Shown here: one piece after another, positions 2,389-38,664 of the stretch
How the letters are laid out: each line of letters opens with the position of its first letter
How positions within the stretch are numbered: position 1 is the stretch's first letter
Assembly (NCBI GenBank): GCA_016212295.1
Contig: JACRGO010000195.1
Coordinates: 1-42,227 of the forward strand
Direction: 5' to 3'
Length of the DNA stretch: 42,227 nucleotides
Origin: Nitrospinota bacterium
GTDB lineage: Bacteria; Nitrospinota; Nitrospinia; JACRGO01
Notes under the pieces: model-generated
The model's input: only the letters and a program-made list of their open reading frames with translations
What the model was told of the DNA's origin: nothing
Database searches by the model: none
Made by a program: the position numbers and the translations under genes

Positions 2389-2608
2389 TAATAGTTCACG
2401 GGGATCAGGGATCAGGGGCCAGTTTACTTCTTCATGAACCTTCTCAAACCACCAACTATTCCGCCAATTTCAGTGGTTTGACCACCAAATGGACAAATAG
2501 CGGTGAAACTCCTTGCTGCTTTGCATGGCATGCCCTTCAGCAACATTGTCGGGAATAAATATCGCTTGGTTTTGCTGGCTCCTGATCCCTGACCCCCGTG
2601 AACTATTA
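2389..2608 (-). mobile_element. 220-bp MITE-like element containing an internally deleted four-helix-bundle (S23-type) gene
   Basis: The 34-bp arms 2389-2422 and 2575-2608 are inverted and match at 32 of 34 positions; each carries TCAGGGATCAGG. Between them, on the minus strand, 2547-2485 encodes NVAEGHAMQSSKEFHRYLSI, close to the conserved centre of four-helix-bundle/S23 proteins (the SNIAEG...KEF..FL.IA pattern). Further on, in a different frame, TEIGGIVGGLRRFMKK ends at a stop at 2424-2426 and resembles the family's C-terminus. The part between the two is missing. A second copy of one end (arm plus about 30 bp) is at 36812-36875. Confidence 0.7.
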
Positions 2609-2614
2609 CAATAT

Positions 2615-3385
2615 TTATTTCAAGACTCCTCTGTCGGAGGATTCCACGAAACTGACGATTTCCTCTATTTCCTCCCTGACTTCCATCTCTTCCCTGATTT
2701 TTTCCAATGCCTGGGACGTGTTGAGGTCCGACCATAGAAGCAGCTTGAACGCGCGCTTTATATTGTTTCTTCGTTCCTGGGGAATGCCGGATCGTTTAAT
2801 GCCGACTACGTTTAATCCGCGCACCTCCGCTGGATTTCCCTCCACCAGGGAATATGGGAGGATGTCCTTAGGTATTCTTGATAGGCCGCTTACCATTGAA
2901 AGGCGGCCAATGCGGACAAACTGATGGATGCCCACATAACCGGAAATGGTGGCCTGGTCCCCAACCTGAACGTGTCCGGTCAATCCGGTATAATTAACGA
3001 TCACCACCTTATTGCCGAGTTTGCAGTCGTGCGCGACATGGCTGTAGGCCATCAAAAAACACTCGGCGCCGATATCCGTTGATTCCCCTTCCGTCCCGGA
3101 GCGATGCACGGTCACGAATTCGCCGATTACCGTTTTATCGCCGATATTCACAAAGGATTTCTTTTCCTGGTATCCGATAATTTGAGGGGCGCCGCCAATG
3201 GCCGCGCCATGGCGGATTCTGCAATCAGCGCCGATATTCACCCATTTTTCAATTGAGACATTGGCCCCTATCTTCGCCCCAGGGCCTATTCTTGTATCGG
3301 GTCCGATGATTGTAAACGGCCCGATCTCGGCGTCTTCCGCTATTTGAGCGCTTGGGTCGATTTGCGAGGTGGGATGAATGGGCAT
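2615..3385 (-). CDS. lpxA: Acyl-ACP--UDP-N-acetylglucosamine O-acyltransferase LpxA
   Basis: This is the first acyl transfer of lipid A synthesis, cytoplasmic. The 256-residue protein (usual family length about 260) has an N-terminal left-handed beta-helix of hexapeptide repeats (IGPFTI, IGANVS, IGADCR and so on) and a C-terminal helical domain from about 190. The signature HVAHDC places the catalytic histidine at H119. IHQFVRIG and the IPKDILPY segment follow. The ATG at 3385 sits directly against a dispersed inverted repeat that separates it from fabZ. If the oxidoreductase downstream is GnnA-like, this LpxA might use the 3-amino sugar nucleotide, but no residue visible here proves that. 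Confidence 0.96.
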   Translation of the reverse strand: MPIHPTSQIDPSAQIAEDAEIGPFTIIGPDTRIGPGAKIGANVSIEKWVNIGADCRIRHGAAIGGAPQIIGYQEKKSFVNIGDKTVIGEFVTVHRSGTEGESTDIGAECFLMAYSHVAHDCKLGNKVVIVNYTGLTGHVQVGDQATISGYVGIHQFVRIGRLSMVSGLSRIPKDILPYSLVEGNPAEVRGLNVVGIKRSGIPQERRNNIKRAFKLLLWSDLNTSQALEKIREEMEVREEIEEIVSFVESSDRGVLK

Positions 3386-3551
3386 TATATTATTGCGTTC
3401 AGAAACTTACGTTTTCCGCGCAAGTTTTTCAACTGAAGCATTCAACCTTGGTTTTATTTTAAGCGGAAAACGTAAATTTCTGAACGTAATAATATCATCT
3501 AAACGCTTGAATACGTCGAAATTTATTTTGGCTGCGGCCACGCTGCGCTAT
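3386..3551. repeat. Composite intergenic repeat between lpxA and fabZ
   Basis: Arms 3389-3420 and 3463-3494 are inverted and match at 30 of 32 positions (each contains ACGTTTTCCGC or its complement). Directly after the right arm comes 3501-3551, a 51-bp unit that recurs at 34183-34233 with three differences. Its last bases GCGCTAT overlap the TAG stop of fabZ (3548-3550). Related copies lie at 13583-13634, 34332-34383 and 36876-36937. The unit contains a GCGGC...GCCGC hairpin typical of REP-like elements. Confidence 0.75.
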
Positions 3552-5566: not shown

Positions 5567-5948
5567 GCATTCTCCTTTCATGTTAAAAATTTTATTATAA
5601 AGTTTTTTATGCAAAAAAAGAAATGTTTAACGGCAAAATTTTTTGCTTCAGATTTTGTTGCGGGAGGTTACTCGCGGCTATACGCTCGGGATCTGACCGT
5701 TAAAATTCCAAAGATACGCACCACAGAAAATAGTTTCGCAAATTAATTAATGAAAATAGCTGATTTCCCGAAAAGTTGAGTGACTAAAGCGTAAAGTGAA
5801 CTAAAGTGCCAACAAAAGATATTTTAAATTTCAAATTGTGGATTTTAGATTGGAAGAATATAAAAAGAAAAAACCTACCACAAATCTAAAATCAGTCTAA
5901 TTAACTTTAGTCACTTGAAATTTTAGCTCACTTTAACCACTCGCGCTA
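5567..5948. repeat. Intergenic region between bamA and skp with inverted CTAAAGTGA repeats
   Basis: About 380 bp. Segments at about 5774-5810 and 5900-5939 are inverted versions of a repeat built from GTGACTAAAG and AGTGAACTAAAG. The same family is at 35608-35690 and in part at 20197-20240. Inside lies a block (about 5818-5900) sharing AGATATTTTAAATTTCA and TTAGATTGGAA-type sequence with 23183-23230. No gene was found. The insertion splits what would otherwise be a tight bamA-skp operon. Confidence 0.6.
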
Positions 5949-12887: not shown

Positions 12888-13344
12888 GGGAAAAAATTCA
12901 AAAGGGAGGAAAAACGTGAGAAAACAATTTATCAAAATTATAAACAATGGTCAAGCCTCTTCACCAATCCCTTATTTATATAGTCAATGTTTTTTTGTAT
13001 CTATTCAGATAACCGCAAAGACGCAAAGTTCGCAAAGGAAAGCATGGCAAGAAAAAGAAAAAATGAGATTTTTGTCATAGGCTTCAAAAAAAATTCAACC
13101 ATTTTCCTGAATTTTTTTTTCCCCAAAATCCACTTTGCGCTCTTTGCGTCTTTGCGGTGAATTTAGTTATTATTTTCAGTATGTTATTATAATTTAATGA
13201 ATTTTCAAAGGAGCAATATCGCACCATTTTTGTGATTTCAGTCACACAAGTATACTCAATATGGCCATAAACGGTGATTTTTCACCGCTCATTCCCGCGA
13301 AAGCAGGAATATAGCGGTTTTAATTCTTTTTTTAGAAAAGCAAC
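12888..13344. repeat. Intergenic region with CGCAAAGACGCAAAG inverted repeat
   Basis: Arms 13011-13037 and 13132-13158 are inverted (about 24 of 27 matching) and consist of short periodic AAAG units. Related modules with CACAAAG units are at 21772-21855 and 38598-38664. The spacer of about 95 bp codes for nothing recognisable. The rest of the region (to 13344) is AT-rich and without a visible gene; it should hold the fis promoter. Confidence 0.6.
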
Positions 13345-13501
13345 ATGAACCACGAAATACACGAAACACACGAAAAAATTTTATTTGAGGAGGAATGTTT
13401 TGCCATTCAGGGGGCAGTATTCGAAGTGTATCGTGAAATGGGTTGCGGATTTGTTGAGTATATCTTATCCCAAGGCCCGGGCTGAAAGAATCATTCTATA
13501 A
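13345..13501 (+). pseudogene. Internally deleted GxxExxY-type gene
   Basis: From ATG 13345 the frame reads MNHEIHETHEKILFEEE and then AIQGAVFEVYREMGCGFVEY, the conserved N-terminal region of GxxExxY proteins (PD-(D/E)XK-like small proteins). It ends at TGA 13483-13485 after 46 residues. In a second frame the bases up to TAA 13499-13501 read PKARAERIIL, like the usual C-terminus of the family. The central three quarters, including the nuclease-like core, is missing. CACGAAACACACGAAAAAAT lies just before the gene body and its inverted copy just after (about 13501-13525), so the deleted gene sits between inverted repeats. Confidence 0.75.
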
Positions 13502-13582
13502 TTTTTTCGTGTGTTTCGTGGTTAATAATAAATCGCCATTTGTGACCTTGTAAAGTATAAACGCGTTCTTTTCATCACCTTT

Positions 13583-13634
13583 CATAGCGAGGTATGGCCG
13601 CAGCCAAAATAAATTTCTGAACGTAATAGTATAA
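13583..13634 (-). repeat. Dispersed GCGCTATG-type repeat, copy upstream of the GT9 gene
   Basis: On the minus strand it reads ACGTTCAGAAATTTATTTTG, then a GCGGCC hairpin, then CTCGCTATGAAAG. It matches the copies at 3501-3551, 34183-34233 and 34332-34383. It lies 22 bp before the start of the glycosyltransferase gene. Confidence 0.7.
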
Positions 13635-13656
13635 AACTTCCCCAAAAGGCCAATCA

Positions 13657-15576: not shown

Positions 15577-15793
15577 GGACTGTCTCCTTCCATCTCGTAA
15601 ATTTATTAAACGCTATTTTTATTAAACGGTTTTTAAATACAGAAACACGAATAACACTAATCAACTAATGACACGAATAGGAAAATTTTTTGAATAGATT
15701 TGATTGGCGCGATTCGTCTATTCGTGTCATTCGTGTTCTAAATATTGGTTGTGGCGAAGCCAGCTGCCATAGCCAAGTTTTGAAATATTTTGT
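15577..15793. repeat. Intergenic inverted repeat with ACACGAAT units
   Basis: Segments 15640-15680 and 15710-15739 are imperfect inverted copies built from ACACGAAT and GACACGAATAG. A short GGCGAAGCCAGC hairpin follows at about 15752. No gene was found. The same ACGAA-type units flank the GxxExxY remnant at 13345. Confidence 0.5.
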
Positions 15794-26303: not shown

Positions 26304-26476
26304 TAGCCACTAAGATCACGAAGTAATCTTGAAGCTAAAAATATAAAATAGAACGCGGATAACGCTGATGATACGGATCATCGCGGATTAAATTTCTTTT
26401 AATCCGTGAAAATCAGAATAATCCGTGTCATCCGTGTTCTATTAAAAAAAGTCGATTTCTTCGTGAACTTCGTGGT
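26304..26476. repeat. Nested inverted repeats between REC-TPR and pseudo-receiver genes
   Basis: Outer arms 26304-26322 and 26459-26476 (CACTAAGATCACGAAG / CTTCGTGAACTTCGTGG). Inner arms 26347-26389 and 26400-26442, each 43 bp, starting AATAGAACGCGGATAACG and ending GTGTTCTATT. The inner element looks inserted within the outer one. No gene. Confidence 0.65.
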
Positions 26477-27460: not shown

Positions 27461-27575
27461 AACTCCAAATAACAAGCATCAAATCACAAATAAGCTCCAA
27501 AAACAAAATGCCAAACAAAAACATTTTGTTATTGGAATTTTGAGTTTATTTGAAATTTGTGATTTGAAATAACGT
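27461..27575. repeat. Hairpin repeat between convergent genes
   Basis: An imperfect inverted repeat (arms CATCAAATCACAAATAAGCT and complement around ATTTGTGATTTG) fills the gap between the pseudo-receiver gene and the PilZ gene. It may serve as a bidirectional transcription stop, but there is no clean T run. Confidence 0.55.
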
Positions 27576-31479: not shown

Positions 31480-31513
31480 GGGATCAAAGGATTAATATTG
31501 AAAATTGAACATC

Positions 31514-31578
31514 GAAGTATGTCATGTGTCATGAGCCCATGACTCACCACCCATGACTCATGACACATGACATACTTC
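31514..31578. repeat. Perfect 22-bp palindrome between priA and the SPOR gene
   Basis: Arms 31514-31535 and 31557-31578 are perfectly inverted (GAAGTATGTCATGTGTCATG and complement); the 21-bp loop itself contains CATGACTCA twice. The right arm overlaps the first base or two of the SPOR gene's stop codon (31577-31579). There is no poly-T tract, so it is not a typical terminator. Confidence 0.75.
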
Positions 31579-33058
31579 AAGGTTCCTTGCCCCCTTCACC
31601 CAGTATAAACCCTTCCTGAAAATTCGTCAGGTAATAATCCTTTCCCACCAATCCCTTGTCTTCAAGTTCCTTGGCGAAGAGGCGCGCGGATTCCTGGTCC
31701 GGGAATTCCCCCACGCGCACACGATACCACACCTTTCCCCCTATCCTTGCCGGGAGCCAGTATACCGCCGCGTTGCACCCCTTTCTCAGTTTGGACATGA
31801 TATCCTCCGCCTTTTCCATGGAATTGTAGGCCCCTACCTGTATGGTAAAGGGAAGCGTCGATTGAAAAGGGACGTACTTCCTGGATTCCGCCGGCTTGCT
31901 TTCTATTTCCGTTTCCGTTTGCGCCGGCGCCGGAGTTTCCTGGACTTGTTCAAGCCGGGAAGGCTTTTCTTTATATGATTTATACGACTGATACCCAAGG
32001 ACCGCCACAAGCAAGACCCCGGCCGTGATATAGAGAAAAGTTGTGTCGGGAAGCCAGGCCCTCCACTCCAGTCCCTGTTTTTTCTGTAATTCTCCTGGTT
32101 CTTTTTTAAATGATTTACCTTTCTTCCTGGAGATAATTTCAGGGAAAAGATCAGCCAGGCCTTTAGCATTGCTTTTCTTGGGAGCGGCGGCCGGTTCGCT
32201 GACCCCGGCTGCCGCGCGGTAAAAGTCCACAAGTCTTCTTTCCCACCCCTCCAAATCCTTGTCCAGGAGATAGGGTTGGGCAAGGTTCATCAACACGTCC
32301 CTGCTTTTTTCCGCCAGTTTGTGTTTCCTTTCAACGGCGTTAAAATAAAGCATCAGGGCAAAGGGGTCCTTGCGCTTCGCGTTCAGAACGCCGGGGAGGA
32401 TTTGGTCCAGTATCTTCGGGACGTGTTTCGATTGTGTTTCTATGGCCTGGCGGTAGACTTCCTGCGCGTCGTAATCCATGAAATTCTTCGTGAGACAGTT
32501 TTCCGCCAAAAGATCAATAAAACCGGTGTCCCCTCCATTGGGAATCAGCTTTAGGCCCAATTCGACTTCCTCCCTTTCCAGATTATTTTTTTCCATAAAG
32601 CAGGAAACCAGTTTTGATTTCAATTGAGGGTCATCCCATCCGGACGTCAACGCCTTTTTATGCACCAGAAGGGCCTTTTCGCTGTTGACGTCCAAGGCCA
32701 GAAGAAACCGGGAATATTCCCTGAAGACCCTTTCCCTCAAACGCCAGGCGGTGTGAGGCAGGAAGTGAAAGGAGTTGGTGAGGACCAATAATTTCTCGAA
32801 AAGGATTTCCCCCTTCTTGAAGAAGCGGGTGATGTCGCATTCCTGCGCGTCCACCATCAAGGCATTGAAGCGCCATTTTCCTAGACGGCTCAGAATCACC
32901 GAGGAAGCGGCAAAACAAAACAGGAAGAGTATATAGAGAAAATATTGAGGATAGTTCCTGCCCTCGCCTGAATACATGATTCCGAAGGCAGCGCACCCGA
33001 AGAGTATATAACTCAGGGCCAGGCGTGAGGAAAAATATTTTAAGATGTCGGCTATCAT
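31577..33058 (-). CDS. SPOR-domain membrane protein
   Basis: A 493-residue protein with two N-terminal membrane segments (LALSYILFGCAAFGIMY and YFLYILFLFCFAASSVIL), a helical region of about 250 residues that looks TPR/HEAT-like without clear repeats, a third membrane segment (FLYITAGVLLVAVLGYQSY, about 345-363), a Pro/Glu linker and a C-terminal SPOR domain from about 400 (PFTIQVGAYNSMEKAEDIMS, WYRVRVGEF). SPOR domains bind denuded glycan strands at the division septum. The double-pass N-terminus plus large cytoplasmic part is unusual for SPOR proteins. Its role is not known. Confidence 0.85.
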   Translation of the reverse strand: MIADILKYFSSRLALSYILFGCAAFGIMYSGEGRNYPQYFLYILFLFCFAASSVILSRLGKWRFNALMVDAQECDITRFFKKGEILFEKLLVLTNSFHFLPHTAWRLRERVFREYSRFLLALDVNSEKALLVHKKALTSGWDDPQLKSKLVSCFMEKNNLEREEVELGLKLIPNGGDTGFIDLLAENCLTKNFMDYDAQEVYRQAIETQSKHVPKILDQILPGVLNAKRKDPFALMLYFNAVERKHKLAEKSRDVLMNLAQPYLLDKDLEGWERRLVDFYRAAAGVSEPAAAPKKSNAKGLADLFPEIISRKKGKSFKKEPGELQKKQGLEWRAWLPDTTFLYITAGVLLVAVLGYQSYKSYKEKPSRLEQVQETPAPAQTETEIESKPAESRKYVPFQSTLPFTIQVGAYNSMEKAEDIMSKLRKGCNAAVYWLPARIGGKVWYRVRVGEFPDQESARLFAKELEDKGLVGKDYYLTNFQEGFILGEGGKEP

Positions 33059-34488: not shown

Positions 34489-35607
34489 ATGAATGACGGT
34501 GAAATGATTAATAGAATTGGAGGAAAACGTTTTATTGGAGAAGATGGCAATAAAAAAACCTCCACCGGCAACTTGGTTTTTATTTCAATTTTTTGTCTTT
34601 CCGTCATCCTGAATTTTTATTTTATTTTTTTTCAGGGGAAAGGGGAAAAACCCGCTGAAGAGGACAAAACCGTTTTGCGGGAAAAGGCAAAGGAGGAGGC
34701 CCCTGCTCAGGCGTCCAGTCCGGGAAGCAAGGCGGCCACTCTCTCCACGGCCATGGAAGGCGGTTTCATTGATGTGGATTTCCCCGCGCTTGGCAAGAAA
34801 CAGGTCAAGCGTCTCGCCTTTACAATCAACAGTTCCCTTTCGCAAACCCTGTGCGCCGCCATTTCCAAGGAGGATGGCTGCGAGATCCTGACCGCCTATA
34901 TGAGCCGCCTTTTGAACTGGAAGCTTCCGGGCTATTCCGACATGAGAAACGGTGACAAGATCGGCCTGTTGATCGAAGGCCCCAAGCTGGAAGATGATAA
35001 TAACAACATCCTCGCCCTTAATTTTCAAGGGTCAAAGGCCCAGGGCTTCGAGACTTTTTATTACAAGGGACCCAAATGGAAATATGGCTCCTATTTTTCC
35101 GAGGACGGAGTGGAAATTTTCCTAAGATTTCGTGATGAGGAAGCGCCCATCAAGGACTTTTCCGAAATAACCTCCCTGGTGGGGGATTTTCGTGGAAAAA
35201 GAAAAGGGCATTCCGGGGTGGATTTCAAGGCCGAGGTCGGCAGCCCGGTTTATTCCCCCTTCGAGGGAAGGGTGCTTCGCGTGAATTGGAATTTCAAGTT
35301 CAATGGGGACTGCATTGAAATCGACCATCCGCGGGAAGGGACCATGGCGGTTTATCTGCACCTTAGCAAAGTGGATGTAAAGCCCGGGCAGGTGGTGAAG
35401 GCGGGCCAAAAGATCGCGGAATCCGGCAACACCGGGAGGTCCTTTGCTCCTCACCTGCACTATGAACTAAAGGACCGGAACGATCAAGATAAAATTCTCA
35501 ATCCATTCAAGTTCAAATTCCACAACACTTACTATAAAAAAATCCCTGCCGATGAATTGAGCTCCTTCCGGGAGCACGTGGAAAAAGTCCGGCAGTTGAT
35601 GAATTAA
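34489..35607 (+). CDS. M23 family (LytM/NlpD-like) peptidoglycan endopeptidase
   Basis: Membrane-anchored metallopeptidase acting in the periplasm. I choose ATG 34489 (372 residues); the frame is open to 34381, but that start lies in a dispersed repeat. After about 30 residues comes a membrane segment (LVFISIFCLSVILNFYFIFF), then a Glu/Lys/Pro linker, a domain resembling the inner-membrane peptidase type (FTINSSLSQTL...), and the M23 domain at about 270-350: RKGHSGVDFKAE and SFAPHLHYELKD hold the zinc ligands (His, Asp and His). Family members cut peptide cross-links. No ribosome site is strong. rfbB follows after a repeat. Confidence 0.9.
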   Translation: MNDGEMINRIGGKRFIGEDGNKKTSTGNLVFISIFCLSVILNFYFIFFQGKGEKPAEEDKTVLREKAKEEAPAQASSPGSKAATLSTAMEGGFIDVDFPALGKKQVKRLAFTINSSLSQTLCAAISKEDGCEILTAYMSRLLNWKLPGYSDMRNGDKIGLLIEGPKLEDDNNNILALNFQGSKAQGFETFYYKGPKWKYGSYFSEDGVEIFLRFRDEEAPIKDFSEITSLVGDFRGKRKGHSGVDFKAEVGSPVYSPFEGRVLRVNWNFKFNGDCIEIDHPREGTMAVYLHLSKVDVKPGQVVKAGQKIAESGNTGRSFAPHLHYELKDRNDQDKILNPFKFKFHNTYYKKIPADELSSFREHVEKVRQLMN

Positions 35608-35750
35608 AAGTGCCTAAAGTGAGCTAAAGTGACTAAAGTTAAAAACAAAAAATTGTTTTTCCACCACAACTTTAGTTCACTTGACACTTTGTCGCTTCAA
35701 ACTTGAATCCGTGTTCTATTGCCTCTTGTGGTGAACTTTAATTTGAGCCT
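35608..35750. repeat. CTAAAGTGA inverted repeat upstream of rfbB
   Basis: Arms at about 35608-35647 (GTGCCTAAAGTGAGCTAAAG...) and 35651-35690 (complement, ACTTTAGTTCACTTGACAC) with a small AAACAAAAAATTGTTTTTCC hairpin at the centre. The same family is in the bamA-skp gap (about 5774-5939) and in part at 20197. No gene. Confidence 0.65.
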
Positions 35751-36803: not shown

Positions 36804-36811
36804 GGGTTTAG

Positions 36812-36937
36812 AAATAGTTCACAGGTGTCAGGGATCAGGAGTCAGGAAAACCAAGCGATATCGATTCCCGCCAATATATTATTACGTTCAAAAATTTGCG
36901 TTTTGCGCGCAAGTTTATTGAGCCACGTCGAGCTATG
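36812..36937. repeat. Fused copies of two dispersed repeats in front of the arginase gene
   Basis: 36812-36875 matches the end of the four-helix-bundle element at 2575-2608 plus its inner flank (AAAACCAAGCGATAT then ATTCCCG, CAAT). It passes directly into a copy of the GCGCTATG-type repeat family (ATTACGTTCAAAAATTTGCG, TTTTGCGCGCAAGTTT, ..GAGCTATG), whose final ATG (36935-36937) is the arginase start codon. Confidence 0.65.
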
Positions 36938-38559: not shown

Positions 38560-38597
38560 CAGTTTGGCCCCTGCTTCAGAGCGCAATCAGGCTTTTT

Positions 38598-38664
38598 ACC
38601 ACAAAGCGCTCAAAGGAACACAAAGACCACAAAGTCTTATCTCTGGGCGCTTTGTACTACAAAC
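38598..38664. repeat. CACAAAG-unit repeat downstream of dinB
   Basis: CCACAAAGCGCTCAAAGGAA, CACAAAGACCACAAAG and the partial complement GGGCGCTTTGTACTACAAA. A degenerate member of the family at 13011-13158 and 21772-21855. Confidence 0.55.

Follow-up and report, generated by a model that had tools for sequence, protein, structure and literature searches.

A 220-bp inverted-repeat element with a broken S23 gene in a Nitrospinota lipid A operon, a probable deletion derivative of a small mobile element

A structured element in a lipid A operon spacer

In the contig analyzed here (JACRGO010000195.1 of the Nitrospinota assembly GCA_016212295.1; 42,227 nucleotides, hereafter the window), a short inverted repeat holding pieces of a broken protein gene lies between two minus-strand genes, lpxA upstream (2615-3385) and a Gfo/Idh/MocA gene downstream (1410-2366). 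The repeat begins a few bases past the lpxA stop codon and ends just ahead of the Gfo/Idh-type gene, and the question it raises is whether a host gene was captured there and is decaying, or whether the locus is one copy of something that moves. Its arms are 34 nt each around 152 nt, and the match of 32 of 34 positions (94% identity) given in a preliminary description was confirmed; by chance, about 7e-10 such repeats with arms within 900 bp of each other would be expected across the window. The tandem 7-mer inside the arms (Table 1) had been missed in that description.

Between the arms, the minus strand codes for ...IPDNVAEGHAMQSSKEFHRYLSIWW... in one frame and for ...TEIGGIVGGLRRFMKK* in another. 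Only two profiles were matched by these protein pieces, each with a score under its curated cut-off: 23S_rRNA_IVP (PF05635), at profile positions 45-64 with an E-value of 0.02, and TIGR02436 ("four helix bundle protein"), with an E-value of 0.008. The S23 assignment is secured by a longer homologue in a congeneric sister species (G001:C120, from 4535), because this homologue passes the PF05635 cut-off (E 3e-10) and carries the outer arm of the window element (AATAGTTCACGGG / CCTGATCCCTGATCCC). The proposal of an internally deleted S23-type gene within an inverted repeat was borne out, as two out-of-frame PF05635 fragments lie between the arms. The accompanying suggestion that full-length genes might carry the same arms held in part: the sister-species homologue has exactly these arms and a near-complete S23 reading frame, but about 30 middle residues are missing, in frame, and no strictly full-length S23 gene with the window element's own arm was found among the 20 genomes searched.

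Table 1. Positions of the element, its parts and related features in the window
Feature	Position	Strand	Description
Whole element	2389..2608	minus	220 bp; lipid A operon spacer, in the sense of that operon
Left arm	2389..2422	+	outer end TAATAGTTCACGGG, then tandem 7-mer GGGATCA; ends set by aligning copies with unrelated flanks
Heptamer array within arm	2401..2417	+	GGGATCA x2.4 (TRF)
S23/IVP C-terminal fragment	2424..2474	minus	TEIGGIVGGLRRFMKK*; other frame after internal deletion; homologous to end of G001:C120 gene
S23/IVP gene fragment	2488..2547	minus	NVAEGHAMQSSKEFHRYLSI; conserved N-I-A-E-G region; translation and profile matches
Right arm	2575..2608	minus	reverse complement of left arm (32/34); outer end flush
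Same-architecture element with GxxExxY (PF13366) gene relic	13345..13526	+	9-bp arms CACGAAACA; PF13366 E 0.0019
Second, truncated copy of the 2389-2608 family	36806..36877	+	between dTDP-glucose 4,6-dehydratase and arginase, also sense

The class to which we assign the element was delimited by presence or absence at the same site in close relatives and by inverted arms of 7-9-bp tandem units around an S23 gene or its remnant, and both were found at 2389-2608. The empty site was seen in the sister species (G001:C339, positions 503-531), where the same two genes stand 27 bp apart without the element. About 19 related sites are present in the source genome (G000). In an alignment, six of the copies (C211, C101, C16, C156, C4 and C190) have a second deletion of 46 nt in common, which the window copy lacks, as do C121 and C125; the flanks of these six copies are unrelated to each other. 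On the simplest reading of the alignment, a deletion derivative of the window family has itself spread to at least six places. Mobility, which had been considered plausible for this family, is supported by the empty site together with this repeated occurrence of the deleted form. Aligning the copies, as had been recommended, revealed flush ends (TAATAGTTCAC...GTGAACTATTA); in the six copies that have both ends, no target duplication could be seen. Taken together, these data indicate that 2389-2608 is probably non-autonomous and derived by internal deletion from a small mobile element, the intact form of which consists of one S23/IVP gene between inverted arms; the arms are usually short tandem repeats of 7, sometimes 8-9, bp.

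Other repeats are also present in the window. A dispersed inverted repeat of another kind (ATTACGTTCAGAAA...TTTCTGAACGTAAT) occurs at 3384-3419 / 3463-3498 and near 13610-13635 and 36877-36920, and one of its copies appears to truncate the S23 relic at 36877. Further inverted pairs were seen at 13012-13158, 15644-15737, 26347-26443, 27466-27566, 31507-31585 and 38593-38663, several of them made of short tandem units (CGCAAAG-, ACACGAAT- or GTCATGT-type) with nothing or very little inside; these six pairs are probably fully deleted relics of the S23 element class. Repeats of 9 bp of the CTAAAGTGA type lie at 5775-5945 and 35607-35639, and the same unit borders S23 genes of another family (G000:C70:1638 and G004:C61).

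Inverted tandem arrays around S23 and GxxExxY genes

PF05635 was matched 18 times in the source genome and many more times in its relatives, and nearly every such gene is bordered on both sides by mirror-image tandem arrays with a period of 7, 8 or 9, the unit of which differs from gene to gene. The same plan was seen in 80 named S23 loci ranging from Elusimicrobia to Methanophagales archaea, and the S23 loci belong to very diverse taxa, in dozens of phyla including archaea. When arms were counted at a score of 12 or more (about 147 S23 genes in total), inverted arms were present at 85% of 78 named S23 genes and 86% of 69 in the relatives, compared to 2% of 240 positions taken from the same contigs as controls and 1% of shuffles. 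The possibility, raised in the preliminary description, that such arms are equally common around unrelated DNA does not hold against these controls. Lag-7 arrays on both sides were found at 55% (named) and 49% (relatives) of the genes compared to 0% of controls, and lags of 3-6 and 10-12 are practically missing from the flanking arrays. About 15% of S23 genes have no clear inverted arms, and at 15 of 149 the arrays are better alike in direct orientation.

The flanking arrays at L184, L247, L122 and L123 match better direct than inverted. One genome (G083) has 19 PF05635 matches, and those inspected (L133, L134) are tight divergent pairs without arms, unlike all others.

Intact S23 genes are under purifying selection, with a dN/dS of 0.06-0.12 in five S23 paralogue pairs and saturated dS in two more. 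Because 85-86% of S23 genes are armed and intact copies are maintained by this selection, the S23 gene is the defining component of these elements and not their cargo.

A second gene family follows the same plan: 21 of 22 GxxExxY (PF13366) genes have inverted arms, with periods mostly of 8-10. Since GxxExxY genes share the S23 arm plan, the second case at 13345 is explained. The earlier idea of a general process was right in that S23 and GxxExxY genes both reside in such elements; however, the arms at 2389 and 13345, which had been called unrelated, are not so in kind, both being inverted arms of short tandem repeats (7-mer and 9-mer, respectively).

Independent insertions were observed in cultured cyanobacteria by comparing plasmid pairs. 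In Picosynechococcus PCC 7003, an S23 gene with arrays lies between cas10 and cmr3, a site that is empty in PCC 7002, and in Nostoc edaphicum an S23 gene with arrays lies between nrd genes and is absent in Calothrix NIES-4105. The array of PCC 7003 has the last bases of cas10 duplicated (AGAATTTGAGGAGATA twice), as would be expected if arrays grow by slippage. The spacer between cas6 and cas4 holds S23 genes with different arrays in Anabaena sp. 90 (L298) and Pseudanabaena galeata, another inverted repeat in Dolichospermum (L302) and a bare heptamer array in Pseudanabaena ABRG5-3. This spacer is a hot spot for array elements, as each of the four cyanobacterial plasmids (L298, L302 and, from Pseudanabaena, L303 and L304) has a different repeat element in it. 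Two plasmid copies in Calothrix brevissima were rejected as independent insertions, because their flanking genes are in common and they are plasmid relatives. In the plasmid copies of Riemerella, Trichormus and Nostoc, the four-helix-bundle gene has close neighbours in plasmid gene clusters, and these copies are not counted among the cases of mobility.

Arm similarity, orientation and rival explanations

Arms are alike within an element (median similarity score of 19) and unlike between elements at 55-65% protein identity (8.5), and they are common only to pairs of elements above 75% protein identity; the arms therefore change fast but together. The elements are also strongly oriented. Both neighbours are on the same strand as the S23 gene in 93 cases and both on the opposite strand in 11 (p ~2e-17), neighbour strands being taken from longest-ORF calls and not from annotation; GxxExxY genes are sense to their neighbours in 18 cases and antisense in 0, and the non-coding relics of the window family are sense in 11 and antisense in 2 (p 0.02). 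DDE transposase genes, considered as an orientation control, had both neighbours in just 10 cases, too few for use. The relics make no protein yet are sense-biased, and the bias is therefore not only due to a need for S23 expression. Insertion into transcribed single-stranded DNA and purging of antisense insertions are candidate causes.

Such strong sense orientation in operons, shared by S23 genes, GxxExxY genes and even non-coding relics, would also suit an element that acts at the RNA level, with arms that are complementary since the transcript must fold, either for intron- or IVS-like excision or for RNA-templated movement driven by a reverse transcriptase (RT), as with Avd in diversity-generating retroelements. 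The Coxiella 23S rRNA intervening sequence (IVS) is indeed cut out by RNase III (PMC4990558), and S23 distantly resembles Avd (NF033474), one S23 protein scoring 42.5 bits against a cut-off of 80. However, the arm mismatches comprise 242 of the G.U type and 241 of the A.C type, so selection for RNA pairing of the arms, for which a G.U excess would speak, finds no support; moreover, G004, a genome 92% complete with 10 S23 matches, has no RT match. Given the sub-threshold score and this genome, the gene does not qualify as Avd of a diversity-generating retroelement. We regard the RNA-level explanation as rather unlikely. The lack of G.U bias argues that arm identity is most simply kept at the DNA level, where fold-back copying or conversion may be responsible.

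The many short copies, their inverted ends and the retention of arms in deleted forms are likewise what an ordinary MITE would display, that is, a non-autonomous remnant of a DNA transposon that depends on a DDE or Y1/RAYT transposase encoded at another genomic location and has S23 as a passenger; 15 of 20 relatives do have Y1_Tnp. This explanation is improbable, however, because the six two-ended copies have no visible target duplication, the arms vary between elements in a manner unlike transposase-specific ends, the S23 gene is conserved and under selection, and Y1_Tnp is absent from G019, which has 6 S23 matches but is only 78% complete. When the source genome and 19 relatives were searched with the arms, all matches were relics bearing arms, apart from a single S23 gene. 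An RT or a Y1 transposase as an obligatory partner was rejected, since each is absent from some S23-carrying genomes, an argument weakened by genome incompleteness.

A captured host gene decaying in an unrelated inverted repeat, as first proposed, would account for the broken S23 gene of the 2389-2608 copy but is hardly credible, as the preponderance of armed S23 genes does not support capture and intact, selected S23 genes lie between such arms in dozens of taxa.

Relation to known repeats and a possible mechanism

The element is not itself a 23S rRNA intervening sequence: it lies between lpxA and a Gfo/Idh gene and not inside a 23S rRNA gene, Rfam gave no match anywhere in the window, and of eleven S23 loci whose arms are weak or atypical, Rfam placed none in rRNA. 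Nevertheless, the link to intervening sequences made in the preliminary description appears apt, the Coxiella IVS having the same plan according to one paper (PMC4990558). There, the IVS is 428-444 nt long with 28-bp inverted ends and an S23 ORF, tandem GACAGAT heptamers precede the ORF in strain-variable number, one strain has a 176-bp deletion in the ORF, and the authors call its function and origin "unclear" (PMC4990558). The S23 elements and the Coxiella IVS thus have in common a single S23/IVP gene in terminal inverted repeats, tandem heptamers, internal ORF deletions and sense transcription. However, IVSs have been described only inside 23S rRNA helices, whereas the elements here are intergenic, mostly in operon spacers, and multicopy; their arms usually consist of tandem arrays, the unit of which changes from one element to the next.

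Heptamer repeats have been described in Xanthomonas and Nostoc (PMC4692102), with 70-75 pairs in inverted orientation in Xanthomonas, and as TAACTGA repeats in Beggiatoaceae and Microcystis (PMC4679880). These repeats and the cyanobacterial STRR are likewise intergenic 7-bp tandem units; however, they were described as orphans, whereas the arrays here border a gene. No general link of the Xanthomonas and Nostoc heptamers to mobile elements was found (PMC4692102), and S23 or four-helix-bundle genes are unmentioned in both papers (PMC4692102, PMC4679880). In the open-access literature, Coxiella was the only case in which S23 genes had been connected with flanking heptamers, and no such connection was found outside rRNA.

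MITEs and REP/BIME elements resemble 2389-2608 in being short, non-coding, dispersed inverted repeats, but the window family differs in that target duplication was not seen, its arms are not common across lineages, and its origin lies in S23 elements and not in a transposase gene. In the FB fold-back transposons of Drosophila, short tandem repeats likewise make up the long inverted ends; these transposons are eukaryotic and have no S23 gene, and their likeness to S23 elements is in design only.

S23 is a homopentamer of four-helix bundles (PDB 2gsc; PMC4990558), and no DNA-cutting or -joining enzyme is encoded by the S23 element. We propose that the arms would fold back into hairpins when the DNA is single-stranded and that the S23 pentamer would bind the folded arms, as a DNA hairpin or single strand, and recruit host enzymes for movement; deletion derivatives still bearing arms could then be moved in trans. 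If one arm primes its own synthesis on the other as template, with slippage, this may lengthen the arrays while keeping both arms alike, such that each lineage would drift to its own heptamer. Insertions would survive mainly in short operon spacers in the sense orientation, and an element landing in an rRNA loop could have the same hairpin excised by RNase III, which would account for the intervening sequences known from 23S rRNA.

More broadly, it is possible, and we suggest it tentatively, that S23/IVP and GxxExxY genes together constitute an undescribed, very widespread class of transposase-less prokaryotic mobile elements, with self-renewing inverted arrays of 7-10 bp that turn over as a pair and with insertion in the sense of transcription, of which the intervening sequences of 23S rRNA, along with many of the orphan heptamer repeats, would be special cases and ruins. 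The function and origin of the intervening sequences were called unclear after 25 years, and the S23 element class offers them a testable origin. The heptamer repeats of cyanobacteria and Xanthomonas, which have no accepted origin, would be tied, together with the IVS, to a single class of elements whose protein is a conserved pentamer, and hence to a testable system. Proteins whose only annotation is "four helix bundle protein" or "GxxExxY protein" would gain a function-bearing context, and, with copies found in the lipid A, CRISPR-cas and nrd clusters, the elements are a candidate source of new operon spacers.
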